Part shown: piece by piece, positions 507-28,074 of the stretch
Numbering within the stretch: the first letter of the stretch is position 1
Layout: each line of letters begins with the position of its first letter
Source of the DNA: an uncultured Zetaproteobacteria bacterium
Lineage (GTDB): Bacteria > Pseudomonadota > Zetaproteobacteria > Mariprofundales > Mariprofundaceae
NCBI GenBank assembly: GCA_947311495.1
Contig: CAMZLG010000127.1
Location: 1 to 34,119 of the forward strand
DNA length: 34,119 nt
Direction of reading: 5' to 3'
The notes under the pieces: generated by a model
The model's database searches: none
What the model saw: only the letters and a program-made list of their open reading frames with translations
Told to the model about the DNA's origin: nothing
Translations under genes and position numbers: made by a program

Positions 507-556
507 CTGGCTTGTGATGCCGGTGGTCGCGGGTTCGAGCCCCGTCGTCCACCCCA
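507..556 (+). other. 3' fragment of tRNA-His (anticodon arm with GTG, T-arm, acceptor 3' strand, CCA); 5' half missing
   Basis: CTGGC-TTGTGAT-GCCGG is an anticodon arm with GTG (His). It is followed by GCGGG-TTCGAGC-CCCGT (T-arm) and CGTCCAC-C-CCA. No matching 5' acceptor strand (GTGGACG) or D-arm lies upstream. Confidence 0.75.
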
Positions 557-648
557 TTTGTTCTTGTCTCAATAATCCTTATTTATCAGTATGTTATAAG
601 TTTTTGGCGGGTTATTGTCTGCTGCTCCAAAGTGTGGTAAAAAACCAA

Positions 649-1004: not shown

Positions 1005-1151
1005 TGGTAAGCATCTGTTTTAGTAGGGACGCACCAATTGCTGAGACCTGTAAACATGGTTGCCAGTTTATAACCGAAAAGACAAAGAGGAAAGGCATAA
1101 AAATATTACCAAATATACTTAAGGTGCTGATATATTAGGGTTTTGTAAGAT

Positions 1152-1166
1152 TGGCACAGGGAATGC
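1152..1166 (+). promoter_or_regulatory. sigma54 -24/-12 promoter upstream of hupS
   Basis: TGGCACAGGGAATGC: GG-N10-GC spacing, about 80 bp upstream of the small-subunit ATG. Confidence 0.75.
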
Positions 1167-1244: not shown

Positions 1245-2333
1245 ATGGCAAAAATAGAAACATTTTATGAAGTGATGCGTAGGCAAGGAATTACGCGTCG
1301 TAGTTTTCTAAAGTATTGTAGTCTTACTGCTGCATCTTTGGGCTTAAGCCCATCCTTTGCACCAAAAATTGCACATGCAATGGAAACAAAACCAAGACTT
1401 CCCGTATTATGGCTGCACGGACTAGAGTGCACATGCTGCTCTGAATCGTTTATCCGCTCTGCTCATCCTTTGGCGAAAGATGTTATTCTTTCTATGCTTT
1501 CGTTGGATTATGATGACACGATTATGGCTGCAGCAGGGCATCAAGCAGAAGCAATTATCGAAGAAACAATCACAAAATATGATGGTCAATTCTTATTGGC
1601 TGTTGAGGGTAATGCACCTCTAAACCAAGATGGCATGTCGATGATTATTGCGGGCAAGCCTTTTTCAGAACAGCTTAATCGTGTTTCTCAGCATTGTAAG
1701 GCAATTATTTCTTGGGGTTCTTGTGCGTCTTGGGGTTGTGTTCAAGCTGCAGCACCTAATCCAACACGCGCTGTACCAACACATAAACACCCAGGCATTG
1801 CAAACAAACCTATTATTAAAGTGCCAGGATGCCCACCGATTGCAGAGGTGATGACTGCTGTAATCGCATACATGATAACATTCGAGAAAATACCTGAGCT
1901 AGATCGCCAAGGTCGTCCGAAGATGTTTTATAGTCAGCGGATTCATGATAAATGCTATCGTCGCCCACACTTTGACGCAGGTCAATTTGTTGAAGAGTTT
2001 GACGATGAATATGCGCGCAAAGGTTATTGCCTTTATAAGGTTGGCTGTAAAGGCCCCACAACTTATAACGCATGTTCAACGATTCGTTGGAATGAAGGCA
2101 CATCTTTCCCCATTCAAGCGGGTCACGGTTGTATTGGTTGTTCTGAAGATGGTTTCTGGGATAAAGGAAGCTTCTATGACCGCTTATCTGGCATTCATCA
2201 ATTTGGGATTGAATCAAATGCTGATGAAGTTGGTGGAACTGCTGCTGCTATCGTCGGCGGTGCTGTTGCAGTGCATGCAGCGGCTTCAGCAATTCAGCGT
2301 GCTACAAGTAAAACTGATCAGGGAGACTCATAA
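1245..2333 (+). CDS. hupS: Uptake [NiFe]-hydrogenase small subunit, Tat signal, O2-tolerant type
   Basis: TRRSFLKYC Tat motif; [35 protein letters not shown]-terminal hydrophobic anchor. Confidence 0.97.
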
Positions 2334-4144
2334 TGAGCGTAACAACTACTCCAAATGGATATAAATTAGATACGGGTGGACAACGTGTTGTCATTGATCC
2401 TGTAACACGTATTGAAGGTCATATGCGCTGCGAAGTGAATGTTGACTCAAATAATGTGATAACTAACGCTGTTTCTACAGGCACAATGTGGCGTGGTCTT
2501 GAAGTGATTCTTAAAGGTCGTGACCCTCGTGATGCTTGGGCATTTGTAGAACGTATTTGTGGTGTTTGTACAGGTTGCCATGCTTTGACCTCTGTACGTG
2601 CGGTGGAAGATGCATTGGATATTAAGATTCCAACCAATGCATTCTTAATTCGTGAAATGATGGCGAAGACATTGCAGGTTCATGACCATGTGGTGCATTT
2701 TTATCACCTTCATGCATTAGACTGGGTTAACCCTGTGAATGCATTAAAAGCTGATCCCAAAGCGACTTCTAAATTGCAACAATTAACAGGGCCTAAACAT
2801 CCAAATTCTAGCCCTGGTTATTTCCGTGATGTACAAACTCGGATTCGCAAATTCATTGAATCAGGTCAGCTTGGTCCGTTTAAAAATGGTTATTGGGATA
2901 ATCCTGCTTATAAACTAACACCTGAAGCAGATTTGATGGCGGTAACGCATTACCTTGAAGCCTTAGATTTGCAGAAAGAGTTTGTTAAAGTACATACCGT
3001 ATTTGGTGGTAAAAATCCGCATCCGAACTATTTGGTTGGTGGTGTTCCTTGCGCTATCAATATGGATGGTGATATGTCTGCTGGTGCACCATTGAATATG
3101 GAACGTCTGAACTTCGTGAAAGCACGTATTGATGAAATGAAAGCATTTAATGATAATGTGTATATCCCTGATGTGTTGGCGATTGCCAGTTTCTACAAGA
3201 AACAATTGTGGGGCGGTGGACTTGGCGCGAAAAGCGTTATGGATTATGGCGCTTATCCGACGGTTAATTATGATAAATCTACGGATCAATTACCTGGCGG
3301 CGTAATTCTTGATGATAATTGGGATAATGTGATGGAAGTTGATCCTCGCGACCCAACACATGTTCAAGAGTTTGTGAACCATTCATGGTATAAATACCCT
3401 GATGAAAGCAAGGGTTTGCATCCTTGGGATGGTATCACTGAACCAAACTATGATGTTAGCTCTGCGAAAGGTACGCGCACCAACATTGAAGAGCTTGATG
3501 AGAATGCGAAGTATTCTTGGATTAAAGCACCGCGTTGGAAAGGTCATGCTGTTGAGGTGGGTCCATTGTCACGCTACACCTTGGCTTATGCACAAGGCGT
3601 TGAGTATGTTCAAGAGCAAGTTCATAAAAGTGTTGCCGCATTTAATGCGCTTGCAGGCACTGATTTGGGCGCGAAACCAATCTTACAATCGACCACTGGT
3701 CGCACATTAGCTCGAGCTTTAGAGTCTCAATATTGTTCTGACATGTTGGTTGATGACTGGAATGCTTTGATTGCCAACATTAAGGCTGGTGATACGGCAA
3801 CTGCGAACATGGAAAAATGGGACCCATCGACTTGGCCTAAAGAGTGTAAGGGTGTTGGTGTAACAGCTGCTCCTCGTGGTGGTCTTGGTCATTGGATTCG
3901 CATTAAAGATGGTAAAATTGAAAACTACCAATGTGTTGTTCCTACAACTTGGAATGGTTCACCACGTGACCCCGCTGGGAATATCGGTGCATTTGAGGCT
4001 TGTTTGATTGGTACGCCAGTTGAGCGTGCTGAAGAGCCAGTCGAAATTCTTCGTAACCTTCACAGCTTTGACCCATGTCTTGCTTGTTCAACGCATGTGA
4101 TGAGCGAAGAAGGTGAAGAGATTGTTAGTGCTAAGGTTCGTTAA
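2333..4144 (+). CDS. hupL: Uptake [NiFe]-hydrogenase large subunit
   Basis: [23 protein letters not shown]-terminal CxxC and [10 protein letters not shown]-terminal motif followed by a cleavable extension [15 protein letters not shown]. Confidence 0.97.
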
Positions 4145-5009: not shown

Positions 5010-5960
5010 ATGACAGTGAATAATCAGAAACAATTGTTTGACAAACTTTTATACATTGAAACCGCGCCAACAGAAAATGACTTCATTGAAATCATAAAGC
5101 ATAAACATGATTTCCTCCCTTTACTGTTGAATGAGCTGCGGTTGTTTTCCCAGATACCTGATATTATTGATGCATTTGGGGATAAATATATTCGTCATAT
5201 TGTGAGTATATTTTTACTTGCGCACTTAAGAAGTCAGGATGCTTATGTGCCTATCATTCACTTGCTTAGCAATCATGATAAGAAAATGATGCAGCTAACA
5301 GGCGAAGTTGTTTCTGAATCATTGGGGCGCATTTTAGCATCAGTATATGATGGCGATATTCAGCCCATCAAAGATATTATTGAAAATGAAAGGTTAGACC
5401 CGTGGGTTAGGGCAGGCGCTTTGGATAGCTTGATGGTTTTATGGAAAGAAGATGAGTTATCCCGTAATGAAGTCATCAGTTATTTGGCTGAATTGTTGGG
5501 TGGCAGGCTTGAGAGGCGTGCCAGTTACGTTTGGGATGCTGTTGCTCTTATCGCCCACGATATTCATCCACTTGGTTTGGAAACATTATTAAAACAAGCG
5601 ATTTCTGATAAATTAATCGAACCGATTGTCATGGATGAAGATGTGCTTGAGCGTTGCTTGGCGGAACCTTTTGACAGCATATACAAGAGTAAAACGCAGC
5701 TTGTTGATGGGTATATGAAGTCACCTTTTGAGGAGCTTTCGTGGTGGTTATACCCTGATAGAAAAACTATACAAAAAGGTCAAGATTATGCTTCTCTTGA
5801 TGTCCCAATTGTTGATAAAGAAGTGGTGCCTGGGGAGCGAGTATCGCCCATGGGGTGGCGCTCAGCTACAGTCGTAAATCAACATAAAAAAGTTGGAAGA
5901 AATTCACCTTGCATTTGCGGCAGTGGCAAAAAATACAAAAAGTGCTGTTTGTTAAATTAA
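5010..5960 (+). CDS. DUF1186-like / HEAT-like protein with C-terminal SEC-C zinc motif
   Basis: C-terminus VGRNSPCICGSGKKYKKCCLLN is a SEC-C motif; alpha-helical N-terminal region resembling DUF1186 proteins. Confidence 0.7.
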   Translation: MTVNNQKQLFDKLLYIETAPTENDFIEIIKHKHDFLPLLLNELRLFSQIPDIIDAFGDKYIRHIVSIFLLAHLRSQDAYVPIIHLLSNHDKKMMQLTGEVVSESLGRILASVYDGDIQPIKDIIENERLDPWVRAGALDSLMVLWKEDELSRNEVISYLAELLGGRLERRASYVWDAVALIAHDIHPLGLETLLKQAISDKLIEPIVMDEDVLERCLAEPFDSIYKSKTQLVDGYMKSPFEELSWWLYPDRKTIQKGQDYASLDVPIVDKEVVPGERVSPMGWRSATVVNQHKKVGRNSPCICGSGKKYKKCCLLN

Positions 5961-6146
5961 CGCAGATAAAGTGTAAATCTAGTTGTCATGAATGGTTGGC
6001 GAGGTTCTTGTATTTGCCTAATATGATAAGTTAGTATAGATTGTATCATGTAAATAGTAAACCTAATATGCACTCTATAAGAAGTCAGCATACTTAGGCT
6101 TACGTAACCCTTTGTTAAATATCATATAAAACTTGGTAAGCTAGGT

Positions 6147-6161
6147 TGGCAAACAACATGC
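6147..6161 (+). promoter_or_regulatory. sigma54 -24/-12 promoter upstream of the maturation operon
   Basis: TGGCAAACAACATGC: GG-N10-GC, preceded by T, about 45 bp upstream of the start. Confidence 0.7.
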
Positions 6162-15038: not shown

Positions 15039-16742
15039 ATGCGAATTTTGCTGCTAACCCACGCTTTTAATAGCCTTACCCAAAGGCTGTTTGTGGCACT
15101 GCAGCAGGATAAACATGAGGTCACCATTGAGTTCGACATCAATGATGAAACAGCGCAAGAAGCCATTGATTTGTTTCAGCCTGATTTGATTGTTGCCCCC
15201 TATTTGAAGCGAGCCATTCCTGATTCGATTTGGCAAAATCATACATGTTTGATTGTTCACCCCGGTATTGTGGGTGACAGAGGCCCTTCATCTTTGGACT
15301 GGGCAATTATCAATCGAGAAAAAACTTGGGGTGTCACCGTGCTTCAAGCCAATGCCGAGATGGATGCGGGCGATATTTGGGCAAGCATAGAGTTTGAGAT
15401 GCGTGATGCCACCAAAGCCAGCATTTACCGCAATGAAGTGACCACGGCTGCCGTGCAAGCTGTCCAACAAGCAATTGAACATTTTAAAGGCTCCGAATTT
15501 AAACCCTCACCCTTAAAACAAAAGCTTTTATCCGCCAAAGGTAAACTTCGTCCACTGATGGCGCAGAATGTGCGCCGAATCAATTGGCAAAAAGATGATA
15601 CCGAAACTGTATTACGCAAAATCAGGTGTGCGGATGGTTTTCCAGGTGTGCGTGATGAATTATTTGGTCGGGAAGTGTTGATTTATGATGCACATATTGC
15701 TGAAGGGTTGCGAGGTAAAGCGGGTGAGGTGATTGCCAAGTCTGGGCTTGCGTTATGCAAAGCAACTGTGGATGGCGCGGTTTGGGTTGGGCATGTCAAA
15801 GATAAGTCACATCATCATGCGTTCAAATTGCCTGCTACGGTATTGTTTAAAGAGCAGTGTAAAGACCTGTATGACGCACCTACCTGTGAAGGTTATCAAG
15901 AGATACGCTATGAAGAAACCCATGATGTGGGTTATCTTCATTTTCCTTTTTATAATGGTGCGATGAGCACCAAGCAATGCCAAGATTTGTTGGCTGCATA
16001 CCAAGATGCGACCCAACACAACACAAAAGTGATTGTGTTGATGGGTGGTGCTGATTTTTGGTCGAATGGCATTCATTTGAACATGATTGAAGCCGCCAAA
16101 AGCCCTGCTGATGAATCGTGGGCAAATATCAATGCCATGGATGACTTATCCGAAGCGATTATTCGCACCACTTCACATATCGTCATTTCAGCCATGCAGG
16201 GCAATGTTGGTGCTGGTGGTGTGTTTTTGGCAAGGGCTGCTGATGAAGTCTGGGCGCATGAACATGTAATCTTGAATCCACATTACAAAGATATGGGCAA
16301 CTTGTATGGCTCGGAATATTGGACATATTTATTGCCCAAATATTGCGGTGAAGACCATGCCAAACGCATTACCCAAGCGCGTTTACCTATGGGTGTTAAC
16401 GAAGCTTTGGACTTGGGTCTGTTGGATGCTGTGATTCAAGGTGAAAAAGCAGGTTTTATTGAAGTCGTCAAAAGCAAAGCCACCGCTTTGGCGCAACAAG
16501 ATAGTATCTATGCCACGTTGCAACAAAAAGAAGTGCAGCGCGACCAAGATGAAGCTGAAAAAGCTTTGTCGGCTTACCGTGAAGAAGAGTTGCGACGTAT
16601 GAAGAAAAACTTTTATGGCTTTGACCCAAGCTACCATGTCGCAAGGTATAACTTTGTGTACAAGGTCTGTAAATCTAGGACACCACTTACGCTTGCAGGA
16701 CATCGAAATAAGGCAAGGCGTGAGATGAGGAGAGCGGCATGA
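15039..16742 (+). CDS. hypX: HypX/HoxX, CO-ligand synthesis enzyme (formyltransferase + enoyl-CoA hydratase-like)
   Basis: N-terminal formyltransferase-like region (VHPGIVGDRGPSSLDWAI...GDIWAS) and C-terminal crotonase-like region (VIVLMGGADFWSNGIHLN...NVGAGGVFLARAADEV). Confidence 0.94.
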   Translation: MRILLLTHAFNSLTQRLFVALQQDKHEVTIEFDINDETAQEAIDLFQPDLIVAPYLKRAIPDSIWQNHTCLIVHPGIVGDRGPSSLDWAIINREKTWGVTVLQANAEMDAGDIWASIEFEMRDATKASIYRNEVTTAAVQAVQQAIEHFKGSEFKPSPLKQKLLSAKGKLRPLMAQNVRRINWQKDDTETVLRKIRCADGFPGVRDELFGREVLIYDAHIAEGLRGKAGEVIAKSGLALCKATVDGAVWVGHVKDKSHHHAFKLPATVLFKEQCKDLYDAPTCEGYQEIRYEETHDVGYLHFPFYNGAMSTKQCQDLLAAYQDATQHNTKVIVLMGGADFWSNGIHLNMIEAAKSPADESWANINAMDDLSEAIIRTTSHIVISAMQGNVGAGGVFLARAADEVWAHEHVILNPHYKDMGNLYGSEYWTYLLPKYCGEDHAKRITQARLPMGVNEALDLGLLDAVIQGEKAGFIEVVKSKATALAQQDSIYATLQQKEVQRDQDEAEKALSAYREEELRRMKKNFYGFDPSYHVARYNFVYKVCKSRTPLTLAGHRNKARREMRRAA

Positions 16743-18232
16743 GTGAAACATTACCTTCAATATTATTGGTTGATGATGAAGTTAGAGTATTGGAATCCCT
16801 ACAGCGTTTGCTCGAAGATGATTTTGATGTGCATACTGCCAATTCAGCTGATGATGCGATGATGGTGCTTGCAGATGAGTTTATTCAGGTTGTGATTTCT
16901 GACCAACGTATGCCTGGAATGACTGGTGTAGAGTTTTTACAAGAAGTTCGAGGTCGTTTTCCAGAGGTGATTCGGATGATTGTGTCCGGATATACTGACT
17001 CAGAAGATATTATCACTGCAGTGAATGAAGCTGGGATTCACCAATACATTACCAAGCCTTGGGACCCTGATAACTTGCTGTTAACGGTTAGAAACGCGAC
17101 ATATTTATTTCAACTTCAACGTAAAAACCAGCAGCTCACGACAGAGCTGAAAATGTTACCATCCAGTGTTGAGGATGGTCTCGAAGAATTAAGACACCGT
17201 TTAATCAATGCTTATGATGTTGATTACGGGATTATTCGTGCGCCTGATAGCTGTATGAATAATGTGTGCGATATTATTCGGCAAGTGGCAACGTTTGACG
17301 TGTCTGTGTTGCTGATGGGTGATTCGGGTGTGGGTAAAGAGTTGTCTGCACGAGCTTTGCACTATGGGAGCCTGCGTTCGGATAAACCTTTTGTAGCAGA
17401 AAACTGTGCGGCACTTCCCGATGAACTTTTAGAGAGTGAACTTTTTGGATATAAGAAAGGGGCTTTTACGGGTGCGAATGCTAATCGCATTGGACTATTT
17501 GAAGAAGCTGATGGCGGAACCATCTTTTTGGATGAGATTGGGGATACCACGCCAGCGTTCCAAGTGAAGTTATTGCGCGTTTTACAAGAAGGTGAAATTC
17601 GCCCACTTGGCAGTAATGAGCGCAAAAAAATAAATGTTAGAGTTCTTGCAGCGACCAATAAAGATTTAGAGAAAGAAGTCAGGGAAGGACGTTTCCGTGA
17701 GGACTTATACTATCGACTTTCCACGTTTAAAATTAATATTCCCCCGCTTTCAGAGCGGCTTGATGATGTACCTTTATTAGCCCGAGCCATACTTGAAACA
17801 ACGATGCAAGAGCTTGGAAAAAAAGTGAAAGGGTTTTCTGATGAGGCGTTAGCTTGCATGAAGTCATATCATTGGCCTGGGAATGTGCGTGAACTGCAGA
17901 ACGAAGTAAAGCGTATGTTGGTGATGGCAAATGGTGATTACTTAGGTGCGGAACTTTTATCACCTCAGGTATTGCGTGCTGCTCCAAAAGAAGATGAAGT
18001 GGAATTAGAGTGGTTAACAAGCCAAGAAGGCTCTTTGCGAGAGCGGTTAGATAGCTTAGAGGCAAGAATTGTGAAAGAGGCTTTAATCCGTAATCGTTGG
18101 AATAAGAGCAAAACTGCAAAAGAACTCGGTTTATCTCGAGTAGGTCTGGGAAACAAACTCGAAAGGTATGGTCTAGAAAAGGTTGAAACACTGGATTTAG
18201 ATGATGGGCAGTTGCAGGCAACAGGAAGCTGA
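16739..18232 (+). CDS. hoxA: NtrC-family sigma54-dependent response regulator (HoxA/HupR-like)
   Basis: Receiver domain VVISDQRMPGMTG; AAA+ GDSGVGKE, ELFGYKKGAFTGA; C-terminal Fis-type HTH NRWNKSKTAKELGLSRVGLGNKL. Confidence 0.94.
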   Translation: MSETLPSILLVDDEVRVLESLQRLLEDDFDVHTANSADDAMMVLADEFIQVVISDQRMPGMTGVEFLQEVRGRFPEVIRMIVSGYTDSEDIITAVNEAGIHQYITKPWDPDNLLLTVRNATYLFQLQRKNQQLTTELKMLPSSVEDGLEELRHRLINAYDVDYGIIRAPDSCMNNVCDIIRQVATFDVSVLLMGDSGVGKELSARALHYGSLRSDKPFVAENCAALPDELLESELFGYKKGAFTGANANRIGLFEEADGGTIFLDEIGDTTPAFQVKLLRVLQEGEIRPLGSNERKKINVRVLAATNKDLEKEVREGRFREDLYYRLSTFKINIPPLSERLDDVPLLARAILETTMQELGKKVKGFSDEALACMKSYHWPGNVRELQNEVKRMLVMANGDYLGAELLSPQVLRAAPKEDEVELEWLTSQEGSLRERLDSLEARIVKEALIRNRWNKSKTAKELGLSRVGLGNKLERYGLEKVETLDLDDGQLQATGS

Positions 18233-18246
18233 GTAAAGTAAAGCTT

Positions 18247-19602
18247 ATGCCTATTGCACTCTCCAAACAAATCATCGACACAGCAGCCAATGCTTTGGAA
18301 AATGATAATGAGGGTATGTGGATTGAAGTTATCCAAAAAATGGATGCAGTGTATGCAGACTTATTACGATACCAAGTTGAATTAGAAGAAAAAAATGTTG
18401 CCTTAGAAGAAGCACAACAATTTATCCGTGGTGTATTAACATCAATGACGGATATTTTGGTGGTTTGTGATTTATCTGGCTATATCCAACAATCCAATAA
18501 AGCATTGTCCGAGTTATTTGGTCAGTCTGAGGATTCATTGGTTGGGGTGCCAATCCAAACATTTTTTGACGAGCTCTCACAATCCGCATTGTTGAAATGC
18601 CTAGACAGAGCAAGGTTGGGAATGTCTGAGGAGCATGAAGTTTCTGTGGTTGATACGCATGGTATATCATCACCACTTGTTGTTCGTTGCTCCCCCCAAT
18701 TTGACCATGAAGGTGTTTTAATCGGCATGGTGCTTATAGGGAGACCGATAGGTGAATTAAGGAAAGCCTATAATGAATTGAACCAGACCCATATAGAACT
18801 TAAAGAAGCACAAAATCAGTTGGTTCAATCTGAGAAAATGGCATCGTTAGGTCGCTTGGTGGCGGGGGTTGCTCATGAACTGAATAACCCGATTAGTTTT
18901 GTGCATAGTAATATGTATGCAATCAAAAAGTATGGCTATCGTCTTAGAGAGTATATAGAAGATTTACATGAGCAACTGGGTGATAATTTAGATGAATCAC
19001 TACGCAAAAAATTAAAAATCGATAGAATTCTAGATGATATTCCTTCGTTGGTTGATGGAGGTTTGGAAGGAACGGTGCGAGTGAGTTCCATTGTTCAAGA
19101 CTTGCGTCGTTATTCAACCTCACACCGTGAACAAAAAAATGAATTTAATCTCTTGGAGACTGTTAGAAATGCAACCCAGTGGGTTACTAAAACATCACGG
19201 GTACAAGCTACGCTTAGCATTAATGGCGAGCCATTGATGGTACGAACTTATGAAGGGTTTGTTCATCAAGTGATTGTTAACCTTATTCAGAACAGTTTGG
19301 ATGCGATGGAAGAACTAAAGGTTCGAAAAATAAATGTCGATTGCTACCAAGAGGGTAATCATGCAAAAGTAAGCATCCGTGATTTTGGTAATGGTATTTC
19401 TGAGGAACACTTATTGCAGATTTTTGACCCTTTCTTTACCACCAAAGAAGTGGGTAAAGGTACAGGGCTTGGTTTATATGTGAGTTATGGGCTGATTGTG
19501 GAGCAATGCGGCGGCATGATGAGTGCTGAAAACCACCCAGATGGTGGTGCAGTGTTCACAGTCTCTGTGCCGCTTAATGAAGGAGAAGCAGATGCCAGCT
19601 AA
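18247..19602 (+). CDS. hoxJ: PAS-domain sensor histidine kinase (HoxJ/HupT-like)
   Basis: PAS region; H-box VAGVAHELNNPISFVHSN; N-box IQNSLDAM; G-boxes DFGNGI, GKGTGLGLYV. Confidence 0.92.
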   Translation: MPIALSKQIIDTAANALENDNEGMWIEVIQKMDAVYADLLRYQVELEEKNVALEEAQQFIRGVLTSMTDILVVCDLSGYIQQSNKALSELFGQSEDSLVGVPIQTFFDELSQSALLKCLDRARLGMSEEHEVSVVDTHGISSPLVVRCSPQFDHEGVLIGMVLIGRPIGELRKAYNELNQTHIELKEAQNQLVQSEKMASLGRLVAGVAHELNNPISFVHSNMYAIKKYGYRLREYIEDLHEQLGDNLDESLRKKLKIDRILDDIPSLVDGGLEGTVRVSSIVQDLRRYSTSHREQKNEFNLLETVRNATQWVTKTSRVQATLSINGEPLMVRTYEGFVHQVIVNLIQNSLDAMEELKVRKINVDCYQEGNHAKVSIRDFGNGISEEHLLQIFDPFFTTKEVGKGTGLGLYVSYGLIVEQCGGMMSAENHPDGGAVFTVSVPLNEGEADAS

Positions 19603-20602
19603 ACCTTTGAATATGTTGTGGTTGCAATCGGGTGGTTGTGGCGGCTGTACGCTTTCCATGCTGAATGCTGAATCACCTGATGTGTTAACCAGCTTTGAAG
19701 GGGCGGGTATTCATGTGCTTTGGCACCCATCCCTTAGTTTAGAAACTGGTCAAGAAGTTGTCGATATATTAAGAGCGATAGTGGATGGTGAAATAACCTT
19801 AGACATTCTTTGTTTGGAAGGTTCTGTTGTTCGCGGTCCGAACAAAACTGGCAAATTTCATATGCTGGCTGGTACTGGCGAACCGATGATGAATTGGATT
19901 GATAAGTTATCTGCTAAAGCAGAACATGTAGTGGCAGTTGGTACATGTGCTGCCTACGGCGGGATAACAGCGGGAGGGGGCAATCCATCGGATGCATGTG
20001 GATTGCAATATGATGGCGAAAAAGAGGGTGGTTTTTTAGGTAAAGCTTTTAAAGCAAAGTCGGGTATGGGCGTGGTCAATATTGCAGGTTGCCCTACTCA
20101 CCCTAACTGGGTAACAGAAACGCTCTCACAAATTGCAATTGGTGATTTTACACAAGATAGTATGGATAAGCTTGGTCGCCCGAGAAGTTATGCTGATCAA
20201 TTGGTGCATCATGGGTGTTCACGGAATGAGTTTTATGAGTTTAAAGCCAGCGCAGAGAAGCCTGGGGATTTGGGTTGCATGATGGAAAATATGGGCTGTG
20301 TAGGTACACAAGCTCATGCTGATTGTAATATCAGGCCTTGGAATGGTGAGGGTTCTTGTATTCGGGGCGGTTATGCATGTGTGAACTGCACAGCTCCTGG
20401 TTTTGAAGAGCCGGGACATACTTTTACACAAACACCAAAAGTTGGTGGAATCCCAGTTGGTTTACCTACGGATATGCCTAAAGCTTGGTTTGTAGCTTTG
20501 GCTTCTTTATCAAAAGCAGCAACACCTGCGAGACTAAAGAAAAATGCAGTGGTAGATCATATTGAAGTTGCACCAACCATTCACCTTAAGGAGAAGTCAT
20601 GA
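19592..20602 (+). CDS. hupU: Regulatory (H2-sensing) hydrogenase small subunit HupU/HoxB
   Basis: LQSGGCGGCTLSMLNAE; no Tat signal; ATG at 19592 (MPAKPLNMLW) rather than 19523. Confidence 0.94.
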   Translation: MPAKPLNMLWLQSGGCGGCTLSMLNAESPDVLTSFEGAGIHVLWHPSLSLETGQEVVDILRAIVDGEITLDILCLEGSVVRGPNKTGKFHMLAGTGEPMMNWIDKLSAKAEHVVAVGTCAAYGGITAGGGNPSDACGLQYDGEKEGGFLGKAFKAKSGMGVVNIAGCPTHPNWVTETLSQIAIGDFTQDSMDKLGRPRSYADQLVHHGCSRNEFYEFKASAEKPGDLGCMMENMGCVGTQAHADCNIRPWNGEGSCIRGGYACVNCTAPGFEEPGHTFTQTPKVGGIPVGLPTDMPKAWFVALASLSKAATPARLKKNAVVDHIEVAPTIHLKEKS

Positions 20603-22050
20603 GCCGCAGAATTATTGGGCCATTTAATCGCGTTGAAGGTGATTTGGAAGTGCAATTGGATATTGAAAATGGGCAAGTCAATGATGCTTGGGTGGTGTCG
20701 CCTATGTATCGTGGTTTTGAACAAATGTTGCATGGCAAAAACCCTATGGATGCTATGAGTTACGTGCCGCGCATTTGTGGTATTTGTTCTGTTGCACAAT
20801 CGGTGGCTGCAGCTTATGCCATTGCCGATGCGCAAGGTGTGAAAATGCCAAAAAATGGAGAGCTTGCCACCAATCTTATTCTAGCTAATGAAAATATGTC
20901 TGACCATTTAACCCATTTTTATATGTTTTTTATGCCAGATTTCACACGAGATATTTATCAGTCTGAACCTTGGTATGCTAAAGTGAAAGACAGGTTTACC
21001 GCTGTGAAAGGCAGCGCTGCTAAAGATATGCTGCCTGCACGTGCTCAGTTTATGCATATGATGGGCATGTTGGCTGGGAAATGGCCGCATACGTTGTCCA
21101 TTCAACCTGGGGGTACGTCACGCGCCATAACGGCGGTTGAAAAAACACGACTACTTGCCATTTTACATCAATTTCGGGTGTTTCTTGAACAAACCATGTT
21201 TGGTGATGACTTGGAGAATGTTGTGTCCTTATCATCGACGAAGCAACTCGAAGCATGGTTAGATAGTGATAAACACCGCCAAAGTGATTTTGGTTTGTTT
21301 TTACAAATTGCCGCATCGCTAGACCTCGAAAGCATGGGTAGAGCAACCGACAAGTTCATGAGCTTTGGTGTTTACCCTGTTGGTGGCAAACGTTTGTTTG
21401 CATCAGGTGTGTGGGAAAACGGTGATGTTGAGCCCATGAATGCAGAAGCAATTAAAGAAGATATTTCGCATAGTTGGATGCTTCATGGCGCTGAGCCGAA
21501 ACATCCTCGTGAGGGAGTCACCATACCTGACCCTGATATGAAAGATGGCTATACATGGTGCAAAGCACCACGTTTGGCAGGGGATGTGGTGGAAGTTGGC
21601 GCATTTGCTAGACAGGTTGTGTCAGGACAAAATCTTATTGCTGACTTGGTTGAATCATCAGGTGGCAATGTACGCAATCGGATTATTGGTAGGCTTGTTG
21701 AGCTAGCGACTGTCGTGCTTGAAATGGAATCATGGATTAAAGAAATACGCCCCACTGAACCTTTTTATCATTTAACATCCATGCCTGATGAAGCTGAAGG
21801 TGCAGGGCTTATGGAAGCAGCGCGAGGTAGCCTTGGTCATTGGCTAAAAGTGAAGAATGGTAGGATTATTAATTATCAGATTATTGCTCCAACCACTTGG
21901 AATTTTTCACCGCGTGATTCGCACGGTAAGCTTGGTGCGTTGGAGCAAGCTTTGCTTGGCGCGCCTATTCGGGAGGGCGAAGATACGCCTGTTTCCGTAC
22001 AGCATATTGTACGTTCATTTGACCCTTGCATGGTTTGCACTGTCCACTAA
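20599..22050 (+). CDS. hupV: Regulatory (H2-sensing) hydrogenase large subunit HupV/HoxC
   Basis: RICGICSVAQSVAAAYAIADAQG; ends at FDPCMVCTVH with no C-terminal extension. Confidence 0.95.
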   Translation: MSRRIIGPFNRVEGDLEVQLDIENGQVNDAWVVSPMYRGFEQMLHGKNPMDAMSYVPRICGICSVAQSVAAAYAIADAQGVKMPKNGELATNLILANENMSDHLTHFYMFFMPDFTRDIYQSEPWYAKVKDRFTAVKGSAAKDMLPARAQFMHMMGMLAGKWPHTLSIQPGGTSRAITAVEKTRLLAILHQFRVFLEQTMFGDDLENVVSLSSTKQLEAWLDSDKHRQSDFGLFLQIAASLDLESMGRATDKFMSFGVYPVGGKRLFASGVWENGDVEPMNAEAIKEDISHSWMLHGAEPKHPREGVTIPDPDMKDGYTWCKAPRLAGDVVEVGAFARQVVSGQNLIADLVESSGGNVRNRIIGRLVELATVVLEMESWIKEIRPTEPFYHLTSMPDEAEGAGLMEAARGSLGHWLKVKNGRIINYQIIAPTTWNFSPRDSHGKLGALEQALLGAPIREGEDTPVSVQHIVRSFDPCMVCTVH

Positions 22051-24381
22051 ATGCGTGGTATTAAAATTCGTGTTCGTGGGGTGGTGCAAGGGGTTGGATT
22101 TCGCCCGTTTGTTGCCAACTTAGCTGAGGATTTGCATATCAGAGGGCAGGTTTGGAATGATGCAGAAGGTGTGTTGATTCGAGCTTGGGCGGATGAAAGT
22201 GTGTTAGATATATTTGTGCAAAACATCCAAGACACAGCACCACCATTGGCAAAAATTCAACATATTGAAAGTGTGGCTTTAGATGAAGTATGTCATGTAA
22301 AAGGCTTTGAAATTATTACCAGTGTTCAAGGTAAAACGGCAACGGGTGTTGCTGCTGATGCGGCGACCTGCGAGGCATGTTTGGCAGATGTGCAAAATCC
22401 AGATGATAGGCATTATCAATATCCCTTTACCAACTGCACACATTGTGGACCAAGGCTCTCTATCATTCGTGAAGTACCGTATGACCGCACCAATACCAGC
22501 ATGTCTGTATTTGAAATGTGTGACGCATGTCTGGCAGAATATCAAAATACCAAAGACAGGCGTTTTCATGCCCAACCCAATGCTTGCCCAGATTGTGGTC
22601 CACAGCTTTTATGGTTAGATGATACAGGTAAAGTTTTAGTCGTTGAAGATGCGCTTGATGAAGCAGTTAAGAGTATCAAACAAGGTTTGATTGTTGCCAT
22701 CAAAGGTATTGGAGGCATTCATTTGGCATGTGATGCAACCCATGAACATGCTGTGAAGATGTTACGCCAGCGAAAGTGCAGATTTGATAAACCTTTTGCC
22801 TTGATGGCAAAAGACATAAAACACATAAGCCAGTATGTATGTGTTTCAAAAGAAGAGATGGTAGCACTGGGCGATGTGGCTGCACCTGTTGTCGTGTTGC
22901 TGGAGAAAGAAGGTTCAATGGTTGCGAATAGTGTTTCGCCGCATCAATCAACCTTAGGCTTTATGCTGCCTTATACCCCTTTGCATCATCTGTTGATGCA
23001 GCAGCTTGATAATCCCATCGTGCTAACATCAGGCAATGTGAGTGATGAGCCGCAGTGCATTGATAATGATGATGCCGTGGCAAAGCTTTCAGGCATTGTC
23101 GATGGGTTTTTGTTACACAACCGAGATATTGTTAACCGCCTTGATGATTCGGTGTTAAAGGTGATGGCAGATGCGCCACGAACATTACGCCGCGCCAGAG
23201 GTTTCTCGCCGTCTGCATTGGTGTTGCCCCAAGGTTTTGAAAACGCGCATGGTGTGCTCGCTATGGGTGGTGAGTTAAAAAACACCTTTTGTTTGCTTCA
23301 GCATGGGCAAGCTATTATGTCTCAACATATGGGTGACTTGGAACATGCGGCAGTGCATGAGGACTATCAAAAGAATTTGGCTTTGTACCAACAGCTTTAT
23401 GATTTTACACCAGCGCATATCGCAGTCGATAAACATCCTGATTATTTCTCCACACAATGGGGCACTTATATTGCCGAGGAACAAGGGTTGAAGCTGACCC
23501 AAGTGCAACATCATCATGCACATATTGTGGCATGTATGGCAGAGCAAGGCTTACCTTTGGGTAGCGAGGTGTTGGGCATCGCTCTGGATGGTTTAGGTAT
23601 GGGCGAGGAAGGTGCGCTTTGGGGTGGAGAGTTTCTACATGTTTCTTATGCGTCTTCGAAGCGATTGGGTAGTATTCAAGAAGCACCCATGTTGGGAGGG
23701 AGCCAAGCCATGAAAGAGCCTTGGCGCAACGCCTTCGCACAATTACACGCTCTGGGTTGGGATAATGTAGCCAAGAAATACGAAGCTTTACCACTAATTC
23801 AAAAACTGACTAAAAAACCTGTGCGCAACCTGAAGATGATGTGTAATAAAGGTTTAAATTCACCGCAGGCTTCATCTATGGGGCGGTTGTTTGATGCCGT
23901 GGCTGCGGCATTGGATATATGTTTTGAACGGGCAAGTTTTGAAGGACAAGCTGCCATGCAGTTGGAAGTGCTGGCAGCACAGGTTTATTCAAATCAAACA
24001 AAGCCTTACCCAGTAGATAGAATTGAAAAAGAGGGACTGGTTCGCTTGTCGTGGTTGCCGATGTGGAAAGCGATATTGGTTGACTTGAAAGCAGGGGTGG
24101 CAAGCGCTGAGGTTGCTGCAAGATTTCATCAATCGGTGATTCAAGCAGTATCAAAGTTGGCAGTATCATTATTGCAAAAACAACATCTAAATACGGTGGT
24201 ATTAAGCGGCGGTGTGTTTCAGAATCAAATTTTATTGGAGGGTGTGCAAAGGCTGTTGCATGAAGCAGGGTTTAAAGTGCTTATTCCGCAAGACTACCCG
24301 TTAAATGATGGTGGGTTGTCATTGGGGCAAGCTGCGGTTGTACTCGCACAATCAATGAAAACTAAATATCCCTGTTTTTGA
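22051..24381 (+). CDS. hypF: Carbamoyltransferase HypF
   Basis: Acylphosphatase N-terminus IRVRGVVQGVGFRPFV; zinc fingers CEAC/CTHCGPR/CDAC/CPDCG; C-terminal VVLSGGVFQNQILLE. Confidence 0.98.
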   Translation: MRGIKIRVRGVVQGVGFRPFVANLAEDLHIRGQVWNDAEGVLIRAWADESVLDIFVQNIQDTAPPLAKIQHIESVALDEVCHVKGFEIITSVQGKTATGVAADAATCEACLADVQNPDDRHYQYPFTNCTHCGPRLSIIREVPYDRTNTSMSVFEMCDACLAEYQNTKDRRFHAQPNACPDCGPQLLWLDDTGKVLVVEDALDEAVKSIKQGLIVAIKGIGGIHLACDATHEHAVKMLRQRKCRFDKPFALMAKDIKHISQYVCVSKEEMVALGDVAAPVVVLLEKEGSMVANSVSPHQSTLGFMLPYTPLHHLLMQQLDNPIVLTSGNVSDEPQCIDNDDAVAKLSGIVDGFLLHNRDIVNRLDDSVLKVMADAPRTLRRARGFSPSALVLPQGFENAHGVLAMGGELKNTFCLLQHGQAIMSQHMGDLEHAAVHEDYQKNLALYQQLYDFTPAHIAVDKHPDYFSTQWGTYIAEEQGLKLTQVQHHHAHIVACMAEQGLPLGSEVLGIALDGLGMGEEGALWGGEFLHVSYASSKRLGSIQEAPMLGGSQAMKEPWRNAFAQLHALGWDNVAKKYEALPLIQKLTKKPVRNLKMMCNKGLNSPQASSMGRLFDAVAAALDICFERASFEGQAAMQLEVLAAQVYSNQTKPYPVDRIEKEGLVRLSWLPMWKAILVDLKAGVASAEVAARFHQSVIQAVSKLAVSLLQKQHLNTVVLSGGVFQNQILLEGVQRLLHEAGFKVLIPQDYPLNDGGLSLGQAAVVLAQSMKTKYPCF

Positions 24382-24444
24382 CATTAATGTATACTTGCTA
24401 TGCATAAAATATTCTAAGGTTGAGATGGGTAGCTGCACCTTGAT

Positions 24445-24459
24445 TGGCATATAAATTGC
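24445..24459 (+). promoter_or_regulatory. sigma54 -24/-12 promoter upstream of nickel permease-tatA
   Basis: TGGCATATAAATTGC: GG-N10-GC with full TTGC -12 box, preceded by T, 28 bp upstream of the ATG. Confidence 0.8.
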
Positions 24460-24487: not shown

Positions 24488-25201
24488 ATGTTAAGTGTTT
24501 TATTTTTAGGTTTCTTATTGGGTATGCGCCATGCGATTGAAGCTGATCATGTTGCGGCAGTTGCATCCATGACGACACGCAGTACATCGTTAATTGAGGC
24601 TTTGCGTCTTGGTGCCACTTGGGGCTTAGGTCATACATTGACGTTGTTTCTGTTTGGTTCGATTGTTATTTTTTCAAGCTCTGCAATTCCAGATAAAATA
24701 GCAATGTCACTGGAATTTGTTGTGGGTATCATGTTGGTTTTCTTAGGTATAGATGTCATACGCCGTATGTTAAAAGAGCGCATCCATTTTCATGCACATA
24801 AACATGCAGATGGCATCAAACATTTTCATGCACATTCGCATAAAGGTGAGGGTGTTCATAAAAAATCATCTCATGAGCACACGCATCAAAAAGGATTTCA
24901 GTTTCGTTCGCTTTTTGTGGGTATGATGCACGGTATGGCTGGATCAGCAGCTTTGATTGTACTTGCTTTGCAAACTGTTGAATCGCCATCGGTAGGTGTG
25001 ATCTACATAGCATTATTTGGTTTAGGATCGGTGGTTGGCATGGGTGTGTTAGCAACAGTGGTTATGATGTCCTTACGTCACTCTGCGAAGAAATTGACAC
25101 GGTTTTACAATGGTTTTCAAGCCATGATTGGCGCGGGCACAATTGCTTTGGGCATGTTTATGATGTACGAAATTGGTATTGTTGAAGGTTTGGTTCTTTA
25201 A
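24488..25201 (+). CDS. High-affinity nickel permease, NiCoT/UreH-like
   Basis: GMRHAIEADHVAAVASM; GATWGLGHTLTLFLFG; His-rich loop HFHAHKHADGIKHFHAHSHKGEGVHKKSSHEHTHQ; multiple TMs. Confidence 0.85.
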   Translation: MLSVLFLGFLLGMRHAIEADHVAAVASMTTRSTSLIEALRLGATWGLGHTLTLFLFGSIVIFSSSAIPDKIAMSLEFVVGIMLVFLGIDVIRRMLKERIHFHAHKHADGIKHFHAHSHKGEGVHKKSSHEHTHQKGFQFRSLFVGMMHGMAGSAALIVLALQTVESPSVGVIYIALFGLGSVVGMGVLATVVMMSLRHSAKKLTRFYNGFQAMIGAGTIALGMFMMYEIGIVEGLVL

Positions 25202-25228: not shown

Positions 25229-25393
25229 ATGTTTGGATTAGGAACAACAGAATTGATACTTGTTTTGGTTATTGTTGTGGTGCTGTTTGGTGCTAAGAAG
25301 CTACCCGAATTAGGCGAAGGTCTAGCGAAAGGAATCAAAAGTTTCCGAACTAATTTATCTGAAGATGGTAAGCCGCAACGCGAAGATAATTAG
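25229..25393 (+). CDS. tatA: Short Sec-independent translocase protein TatA
   Basis: [54 protein letters not shown]; classic [10 protein letters not shown] motif. Missing from the ORF track (54 aa). Confidence 0.93.
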
Positions 25394-25572
25394 GCTTTCA
25401 AAAAGCAAAACTTATTTGTGGTTGATGAGTCAATTGAGAGATGATTTTACCTTGCCCATCAAGGTGCAGCAGCAACTTAGTGACTAGGCTGTTAACCTAA
25501 GCTTGTAAGAAAGATAACTACATGACAGGCTTGTGAAATCTAATTCTATTGCGCTTCTAAAGGTTAATCTTC

Positions 25573-28074
25573 ATGTCAAAAACTCAAACACACACGCGTT
25601 CTATTACGGAAGTCCCACGCGTTGGACAAACCAGCGATGATTTAATTAATGGCATGCAGCGCCATTTCTTGCGGACACTAGGCTTGAGTGATGCATGTAT
25701 TTCAGATCATTATAAGTACCAAGCATTGGCTTTAACCATTCGCGACCGTCTGATGGAAAATTGGAAAGATACCAAGGAAGCCGTGCAAGAAGCTGATGGT
25801 AAACGAACTTACTATTTATCTTTAGAGTTTTTAATGGGCCGAGCTTTGGGTAATGCCATTCTCAACTTAGGCCTCAATGAGCAAACAACAAAAGCATTGC
25901 ATGATTTAGGTATAAATTGCGAAGAAATGATTGAAGCTGAAGCTGATGCAGGTTTGGGTAATGGTGGTTTGGGTAGATTGGCAGCATGTTTTGTGGATAG
26001 CTGCGCCACCTTGCAGCTTCCTGTCACAGGTTACGGCATTCGTTATGAGTATGGCATGTTCCGTCAAAGTATCGTCGATGGTTTTCAACAAGAAGCGCCA
26101 GACCATTGGTTGCGTGAAGGTAATGTGTGGGAAATGGAACGCCCAGAATACACCCAAGCTATTCACTTTGGTGGTTATTCTGAGTCCTATCATGATGACA
26201 ATGGGATGTTGCGTTCGCGTTGGGTAGGTACGAATGATGTGTTGGCAGTGCCATATGACACCCCAGTTCCTGGTTATAAAAATGGTACGGTAAATACATT
26301 ACGCCTTTGGAAATCAGCAGCGACTGATGATTTTGACTTGGGTGAGTTTAATGCGGGTGACTATGCAGGCTCTGTGGCGCAAAAGAATAATGCAGAGCAT
26401 ATTTCCATGGTGCTTTATCCCAATGATAGCAACGAAAATGGTAAAGAGTTACGCTTGCGCCAGCAATATTTCTTGGCATCTGCCAGTATCAAAGATGTGG
26501 TTCGCCAGTGGGTTGAAATTCATGGTGATAATTTCAGTGAGTTTGCCGATAAAAACTGTTTCCAACTTAATGATACCCACCCCACAGTCTCGGTGGCTGA
26601 ATTGATGCGCATTTTGATGGATGACTATCGCCTTGGCTGGGATGAAGCATGGGCAATCACCAGTAAAACCATGGCATACACCAATCACACCTTGCTTCCA
26701 GAAGCGTTGGAACGTTGGTCTGTGCGTTTGTTTGGCCACTTATTACCGCGCATTTTAGATATTATTTATGAAATCAATGCACGTTTTCTCAAAGAACTTG
26801 CCAAGAAATATCCAGGTGATGTGGCGCGCCAACGCCGTATGTCCATCATCGAAGAAGGTGATGAGCAGCAAGTGCGCATGGCATATTTGGCGATTGTCGG
26901 CAGCTTTTCGATTAATGGTGTAGCGCAACTGCATTCAGACTTATTGGTTGAAGGTTTGTTTGCCGATTTTTATGACTTATGGCCTGAGAAGTTTAATAAC
27001 AAGACCAATGGTGTGACCCAGCGCCGTTGGATGGCATGGTGTAACCCATCATTGACCCAATTGATTAACAAAAATATTGGTGATGGCTGGATAACCCAGT
27101 TGGATGAGCTAAGGAAACTGGCACCTTTGGCAGATAAAGCAGCCTTTAGAAAGCAGTGGGCAGCGTGCAAACGTGAAAACAAAGAAGTCTTGGCGGCGAT
27201 TGTACAAGAAGAATGCGGTGTGACGTTTAGCCCTGATGCTATGTTTGATATTCAGGTGAAACGCATCCATGAATATAAACGTCAACTGCTTAATGTCTTG
27301 CACGTGATTCATTTGTATGACCGCATCAAGCGTGGCGATACGGACAACTGGACAAACCGTTGTGTGTTGATTGGTGGCAAAGCTGCACCTGGTTATTATA
27401 TGGCGAAGAAAATCATTAAATTGGTGAACAGCGTTGCCGAAGTGGTCAACAATGACCCTGAAGTCGGTGATAAACTTAAAATCGTATTTTTCCCCAACTA
27501 CCGTGTGTCTGCCATGGAAAAAATTGCACCTGCGGCTGATTTATCTGAACAAATTTCAACTGCAGGTAAAGAAGCATCAGGCACAGGCAACATGAAATTC
27601 ATGATGAATGGTGCGCTGACCATTGGCACATTGGATGGGGCAAACATTGAAATTCGCGAAGAGGTTGGCGATGAAAACTTCTTCTTATTTGGTTTAACTG
27701 CAGAAGAAGTGGAGCAAACACGCGGCAATTATAATCCGAATACCATCATTGAAGCCGATGAAGACTTTAAACGGGTGATGAATTTGTTGCAAAGCGGGCA
27801 TTTTAATCAATTTGATTTGGGTTTATTTGATGATGTGATTAATTCGATTCGTTGCGAAAATGATCCGTGGTTAACTGCCGCAGATTTCCGCTCATTCATT
27901 GATGCACAACAAGAAGCGGCTACCGCATATCAAGATAAAACCCAGTGGTTAAAAATGAGCATTTATAACACAGCATTCAGCGGTAAGTTCTCAACCGACC
28001 GCACTATGCAAGATTATAATCGGGATATTTGGGGTTTAACGCCTGTTACACCTAAAACAAGCGGAACGGCTTAA
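25573..28074 (+). CDS. glgP: Glycogen/starch phosphorylase
   Basis: YYLSLEFLMGRALGNAI; EAGLGNGGLGRLAACF-like stretch; EASGTGNMKFMMNGALTIGTLDGANIEI PLP-site region. Confidence 0.98.
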   Translation: MSKTQTHTRSITEVPRVGQTSDDLINGMQRHFLRTLGLSDACISDHYKYQALALTIRDRLMENWKDTKEAVQEADGKRTYYLSLEFLMGRALGNAILNLGLNEQTTKALHDLGINCEEMIEAEADAGLGNGGLGRLAACFVDSCATLQLPVTGYGIRYEYGMFRQSIVDGFQQEAPDHWLREGNVWEMERPEYTQAIHFGGYSESYHDDNGMLRSRWVGTNDVLAVPYDTPVPGYKNGTVNTLRLWKSAATDDFDLGEFNAGDYAGSVAQKNNAEHISMVLYPNDSNENGKELRLRQQYFLASASIKDVVRQWVEIHGDNFSEFADKNCFQLNDTHPTVSVAELMRILMDDYRLGWDEAWAITSKTMAYTNHTLLPEALERWSVRLFGHLLPRILDIIYEINARFLKELAKKYPGDVARQRRMSIIEEGDEQQVRMAYLAIVGSFSINGVAQLHSDLLVEGLFADFYDLWPEKFNNKTNGVTQRRWMAWCNPSLTQLINKNIGDGWITQLDELRKLAPLADKAAFRKQWAACKRENKEVLAAIVQEECGVTFSPDAMFDIQVKRIHEYKRQLLNVLHVIHLYDRIKRGDTDNWTNRCVLIGGKAAPGYYMAKKIIKLVNSVAEVVNNDPEVGDKLKIVFFPNYRVSAMEKIAPAADLSEQISTAGKEASGTGNMKFMMNGALTIGTLDGANIEIREEVGDENFFLFGLTAEEVEQTRGNYNPNTIIEADEDFKRVMNLLQSGHFNQFDLGLFDDVINSIRCENDPWLTAADFRSFIDAQQEAATAYQDKTQWLKMSIYNTAFSGKFSTDRTMQDYNRDIWGLTPVTPKTSGTA

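Follow-up and report, generated by a model that had tools for sequence, protein, structure and literature searches.

Sigma-54 is needed at the hydrogenase promoters P_SH and P_MBH of Cupriavidus necator, which encodes the NtrC-type activator HoxA, the kinase HoxJ and the H2 sensor HoxBC (PMC10073562). Accessory Tat genes have been described close to genes for several redox enzymes. In Campylobacter jejuni a C-terminally shortened second TatA (TatA2, cj0786) ends the nap gene set and is expressed from the nap operon promoter (PMC4148689). The nos cluster of Pseudomonas contains a tatE gene beside the gene for nitrous oxide reductase, a Tat-exported cofactor enzyme (Heikkila 2001, as cited in PMC4148689). 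Tat is uncommon in methanogens; the 'MIC island' of Methanococcus maripaludis OS7 encodes an exported [NiFe] hydrogenase and the protease for it, with a TatA/TatC pair next to them (PMC6181927). Nickel permeases of the UreH and NiCoT families share an HX4DH motif. They are encoded beside genes for nickel enzymes (PMC2667541). Ghiorsea oxidises hydrogen and lives in the deep sea. An uptake hydrogenase of group 1d and a regulatory hydrogenase of group 2b are reported for it; the paper describing the Favne Ghiorsea does not mention nickel, a permease or tatA (PMC10734525).

The window, a stretch of 34,119 nucleotides, is part of a genome of 1,853,475 bases in 162 contigs. Its regulatory genes resemble those of C. 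necator, but in Ghiorsea a third conserved sigma-54 promoter is predicted ahead of a permease gene and a tatA paralogue (tatA2). As in C. jejuni, a short second TatA ends the gene set of a redox enzyme. However, the Ghiorsea copy is tied to a hydrogenase, has a predicted sigma-54 promoter of its own and keeps the polar residue 8 and Phe39 that are absent from C. jejuni TatA2. Its partner enzyme also differs from that of the Pseudomonas tatE, and whereas M. maripaludis OS7 has a TatA/TatC pair, Ghiorsea adds only a TatA to an existing TatABC. The predicted permease has the motif and the type of gene neighbours of UreH and NiCoT proteins, but falls below the family cut-offs. Precedents thus exist for additional TatA/TatE copies within the nap and nos clusters (PMC4148689), for a TatA/TatC pair next to the hydrogenase of an archaeon (PMC6181927) and for UreH-type permeases with nickel-enzyme genes as neighbours (PMC2667541). 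New is the apparent combination of a nickel-type permease and tatA in one sigma-54 unit linked to the hydrogenase regulon. The literature searched yielded no report of a hydrogenase-linked sigma-54 tatA, nor of a permease and tatA in one such unit.

Organization of the hydrogenase gene cluster

Profile searches of the window revealed genes for an uptake hydrogenase (hupSL with a cytochrome b), maturation genes, hyp genes and a HypX-like gene, followed by genes for a HoxA-type activator, a kinase and an H2-sensing regulatory hydrogenase, and by hypF (Table 1). The P3 box, the permease gene, tatA2 and glycogen genes are located 3' of hypF. The HoxA-type protein consists of receiver, sigma-54 activation (GAFTGA) and HTH domains, and its gene adjoins those of the H2 sensor and the kinase. 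Two further features were observed in this region. A gene for a DUF1186 and SEC-C protein (window 5010-5960) lies within the hydrogenase cluster in all six related genomes checked; this protein shares 43-53% identity between species, versus at least 86% for most of its neighbours. Just 5' of the cluster, at window 509-563, a match to the 3' half of tRNA-His was found, an intact copy of which is located on G000:C128. The position of this piece resembles the edge of an integrated island.

Table 1 Features of the hydrogenase locus in the window
Feature	Position	Strand	Evidence
Candidate UAS of P1, TGTAAACATGGTTGCCA	1049..1065	.	-95 from box in 6/6 genomes, leave-one-out p 0.001-0.03
P1, sigma-54 box TGGCACAGGGAATGC before hupS	1152..1166	+	conserved in 6 genomes
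Hydrogenase small subunit hupS/hyaA, Tat signal	1245..2333	+	TIGR00391 and TIGR01409, translation
Hydrogenase large subunit hupL/hyaB	2333..4144	+	
Candidate UAS of P2, TGTAAATCTAGTTGTCA	5972..5988	.	matched by P1-derived model, p=0.004
P2, sigma-54 box TGGCAAACAACATGC before hupD	6147..6161	+	conserved in 7 genomes
HoxA/HupR-type response regulator, sigma-54 activation domain (GAFTGA), Fis-type HTH	16739..18232	+	Pfam, sequence
HoxJ/HupT-type PAS histidine kinase	18247..19602	+	
Small and large subunits of H2-sensing regulatory hydrogenase, HoxBC/HupUV type	19523..22050	+	
hypF, final gene ahead of P3	22051..24381	+	TIGR00143, 821.9 bits
Candidate UAS-a of P3, TGAAAACTAAATATCCC	24356..24372	.	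second-best held-out match in P3 region
Candidate UAS-b of P3, TGTATACTTGCTATGCA	24388..24404	.	PWM from P1 and P2 upstream regions only, p ~0.01-0.02
P3, sigma-54 -24/-12 element TGGCATATAAATTGC	24445..24459	+	exact match; conserved before permease in 9/10 Ghiorsea loci
UreH/NiCoT-type metal permease, HX4DH motif, His-rich loop, 237 aa	24488..25201	+	profiles, motif, neighbours
tatA2, second TatA/TatE-type gene, 54 aa	25229..25393	+	TIGR01411, PF02416

The sigma-54 box ahead of the permease gene

The original prediction had placed a sigma-54 element, TGGCATATAAATTGC, 28 bp before the permease gene, and both its exact position and its GG-N10-GC spacing were verified on the + strand. The box (in its 16-base form TTGGCATATAAATTGC, 24444-24459) ends 28 bases ahead of the permease ATG at 24488. 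The exact pattern TGGC-N7-TTGC was found 4 times in the window versus 2.9 times expected and is no rarer than chance; the argument for P3 is one of location and conservation. A longer version, TTGGCAYNNRARTTGC, a pattern composed after the boxes of relatives had been seen, has only 2 sites in the 1.85-Mb genome, and the reversed control pattern has 0.

Upon comparison of related genomes, 9 of 10 Ghiorsea loci, representing nine species, were found to carry the box, at -43 to -51 relative to the permease ATG. It is kept in both gene arrangements, with the permease gene either following hypF on the same strand or inverted against it; five of the nine box-bearing loci have the inverted arrangement, in which the permease-tatA pair and hypF are transcribed towards each other. 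The flanks of the box are unrelated between the two arrangements, and the bases around it diverge. Since the upstream sequence in the five inverted loci is unrelated, the box has been kept with the genes and not with their neighbourhood. All 16 Ghiorsea genomes harbour rpoN. Judged from its conservation across species and arrangements, P3 most probably functions as a sigma-54 promoter. The interval from tatA2 to the glycogen phosphorylase gene (window 25393-25573) showed no terminator, and transcription from P3 could therefore continue into glgP in the colinear species.

The second genomic TTGGCAYNNRARTTGC site is located 36 bases ahead of a gene for a PilZ-domain protein (L118:1145-1781). A box ahead of this gene was seen in four Ghiorsea genomes, at 36-39 bases in the other three, which suggests an independent sigma-54 promoter.

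A palindrome upstream of the three sigma-54 boxes

Three GG-N10-GC promoters in three successive intergenic regions had originally been proposed. The boxes P1 and P2 proved to be real as well, with conservation in 6 and 7 genomes, respectively, but the three regions are not strictly successive. Upstream of all three boxes a 17-bp palindrome was found with the consensus TGGAAACTAAGTTTCCA (window 1049-1065, 5972-5988 and, in tandem, 24356-24404). A model derived only from the six P1 regions gave matches in each of the seven P2 regions (p 0.004-0.046); it also matched the four box-bearing colinear P3 regions, at a single place between -49 and -51 (p 0.01-0.06). A model built on P1 and P2, and thus blind to P3, recovered two sites 32 bp apart in the P3 region of the window; at a score of at least 11.5 only 4 non-training sites occur in the 34-kb window, two of which form this tandem. 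The centre of UAS-b lies 49 bases ahead of the P3 box, at the same place as in loci L019, L020 and L021, while UAS-a is located 32 bp before it, within the 3'-terminal part of hypF. The five inverted loci yielded no convincing site ahead of P3 (best p 0.07-0.75). An earlier model of a half-site, derived from P2 alone, failed to reach P1 and was abandoned; it was the P1-derived 17-bp palindrome that linked P1, P2 and colinear P3. To a moderate degree, the shared palindrome supports a single activator for all three promoters, with the HoxA encoded nearby as the simplest candidate.

The permease and TatA2

The label 'NiCoT-like', under which the permease had been introduced, is loose. The protein does have the HX4DH motif that marks NiCoT, in the form RHAIEADH, and both this motif and the His-rich loop are conserved in homologues from several proteobacterial classes. 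In several taxa these homologues adjoin hypB, hypD, hypE or hypF, and many are encoded inside hyp gene clusters. However, the permease misses the NiCoT cut-offs (TIGR00802 22.8 versus 333; NicO, PF03824, 19.6 versus 27.7). Its score for PF13386 (DsbD_2), a family linked to UreH, is below the curated cut-off yet significant (20.7 versus 24.9). A PDB sequence search with the permease gave no useful match. Because the named nickel-family cut-offs are missed, nickel is only the likely metal; sequence motifs and gene neighbours indicate that the permease probably functions in nickel uptake.

The 54-aa tatA announced behind the permease gene is present and scores above the TatA/TatE cut-offs (TIGR01411 64.7 bits versus 53.9; PF02416 55.1 versus 21). 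A polar residue 8, an FG hinge and Phe39 are criteria for TatA/TatE proteins (PMC4148689), and TatA2 has kept E8, F20-G21 and F39, as read from its sequence. A low pN/pS ratio of ~0.08 across species points to strong purifying selection. The original prediction would have failed had this been the only tatA of the genome. A search for other copies, however, revealed a separate, complete tatA-tatB-tatC on another contig (G000:C61), and with this housekeeping set present, tatA2 is a paralogue. Three well-assembled permease-bearing genomes of other Mariprofundaceae genera have a single tatA.

Distribution among Ghiorsea genomes

A hydrogenase is encoded in 9 of 16 Ghiorsea genomes. The permease gene was found in all nine of these and in none of the seven genomes without hydrogenase (Fisher p 9e-5), and tatA2 in 8/9 versus 0/7 (Fisher p 0.001), values that overstate independence since the species are related. 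The exception is G002 (locus L018, 5860-6990), which has kept hydrogenase and permease while tatA2 is gone. Its box region reads GG-N9-GC, one base short, and the tandem palindromes 32 bp apart are still in place. G002 is a case of natural promoter decay. The joint loss of tatA2 and box spacing fits a functional link between them, as a single case. As G002 illustrates, a genome can carry the hydrogenase with neither tatA2 nor an intact box.

A different situation is found in the Ghiorsea-like MAG NORP111 (L019:6001-7960), where a complete tatA-tatB-tatC follows the permease gene behind the conserved sigma-54 box. The TatC encoded on the hydrogenase side groups with Ghiorsea, and the other TatC of the assembly with another genus-level branch. 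In view of these groupings the hydrogenase-side tatABC may be a relocated housekeeping operon. The idea of a dedicated second tatABC in NORP111 was weakened, as the other tatABC, coming from a different genus-level branch, may be a contaminant. An assembly fault or chimera at the NORP111 tatA is possible but considered the less likely case. Its longest stretch of identity with a tatA copy from another species spans 21 bases at most, though it contains one N.

Proposed regulation of the permease-tatA2 unit and alternative explanations

The proposal that permease and tatA belong to the hydrogenase regulon was supported by the conservation of P3, by the co-occurrence of the gene pair with hydrogenase within the genus, by the palindrome that P3 of the window and of its colinear relatives has in common with P1 and P2, and by the presence of genes for RpoN and a HoxA-type activator. 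It is likely that P3 is part of this regulon and that HoxA opens P1, P2 and P3 jointly in the presence of H2, so that permease and TatA are made along with the enzyme. In this scheme H2 would be sensed by the regulatory hydrogenase HoxBC, which would relieve the signal of the kinase HoxJ. HoxA would then bind the palindromic sites upstream of P1, P2 and P3 and activate the sigma-54 polymerase. The hydrogenase would be made from P1, the maturation genes would be read from P2, and transcription from P3 would yield the permease, probably supplying nickel for the active site, together with the extra TatA. The latter could join housekeeping TatBC and increase export capacity for HupSL, a large folded complex with a Tat signal. 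The chain of events between H2 and P3 is inferred from the C. necator system (PMC10073562) and from the sites found here; likewise, we infer H2 to be the trigger, HoxA the binder, nickel the metal and HupSL the enzyme served by TatA2.

P3 might be a true sigma-54 promoter under another activator whose signal is not H2. The genome encodes five strong sigma-54 activator domains (PF00158), HoxA included, so that another of these proteins could act at P3, and in the inverted species no evident palindrome precedes P3. The tandem of the hydrogenase-promoter palindrome at P3 of the window and its presence in colinear relatives, as well as the restriction of permease and tatA2 to hydrogenase-bearing genomes, nevertheless render a different activator quite unlikely. 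Very unlikely, too, is a box of little importance, with the pair expressed mainly from a sigma-70 promoter or by read-through from the hyp operon. Such read-through is possible in the window, where the interval from hypF to the permease gene showed no terminator; a strong sigma-70 promoter was likewise sought there and not found. G002 keeps its permease without a correctly spaced box, and in other Mariprofundaceae the permease gene abuts or overlaps hypF, leaving little or no room for a promoter. However, the box has been kept in nine species while the surrounding bases diverged, and in the five loci where the pair faces hypF in convergent orientation, transcripts of the hyp operon cannot extend into it.

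With respect to the gene products, TatA2 could be a general TatE-like spare, captured beside the permease gene by chance and kept for dosage, with no special link to hydrogenase export. The nap-operon TatA2 of C. jejuni proved not to be Nap-specific (PMC4148689), and the N-terminal 45 residues of Ghiorsea TatA2 are nearly identical to those of housekeeping TatA. Set against its strict co-occurrence with hydrogenase in the genus and its persistence through gene inversion, this role is conceivable but doubtful. An accessory TatA for HupSL, co-induced from P3, is the preferred reading. A more far-reaching version, in which the Tat translocase is rebuilt on demand, the H2 sensor switching in an alternative TatA suited to HupSL and, in NORP111, a whole tatABC behind the same sigma-54 promoter being under hydrogen control, is considered unlikely. 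The permease, for its part, might move another metal or act as an exporter, as its scores under the NicO, TIGR00802 and DsbD_2 cut-offs would allow; in one organism, a UreH member encoded close to B12 genes points to cobalt (PMC2667541). The conserved HX4DH motif and His-rich loop of homologues, many of them inside hyp gene clusters, make this highly improbable and favour nickel import.

The palindrome of P1, P2 and P3 constitutes a concrete predicted HoxA site, and the Ghiorsea species with, without and with a decayed permease-tatA2 unit offer a ready comparison. If confirmed, the unit would provide a natural test case for the function of an accessory TatA, and it would mean that a chemolithotroph scales metal uptake and folded-protein export with one enzyme, via a single gas-sensing switch.
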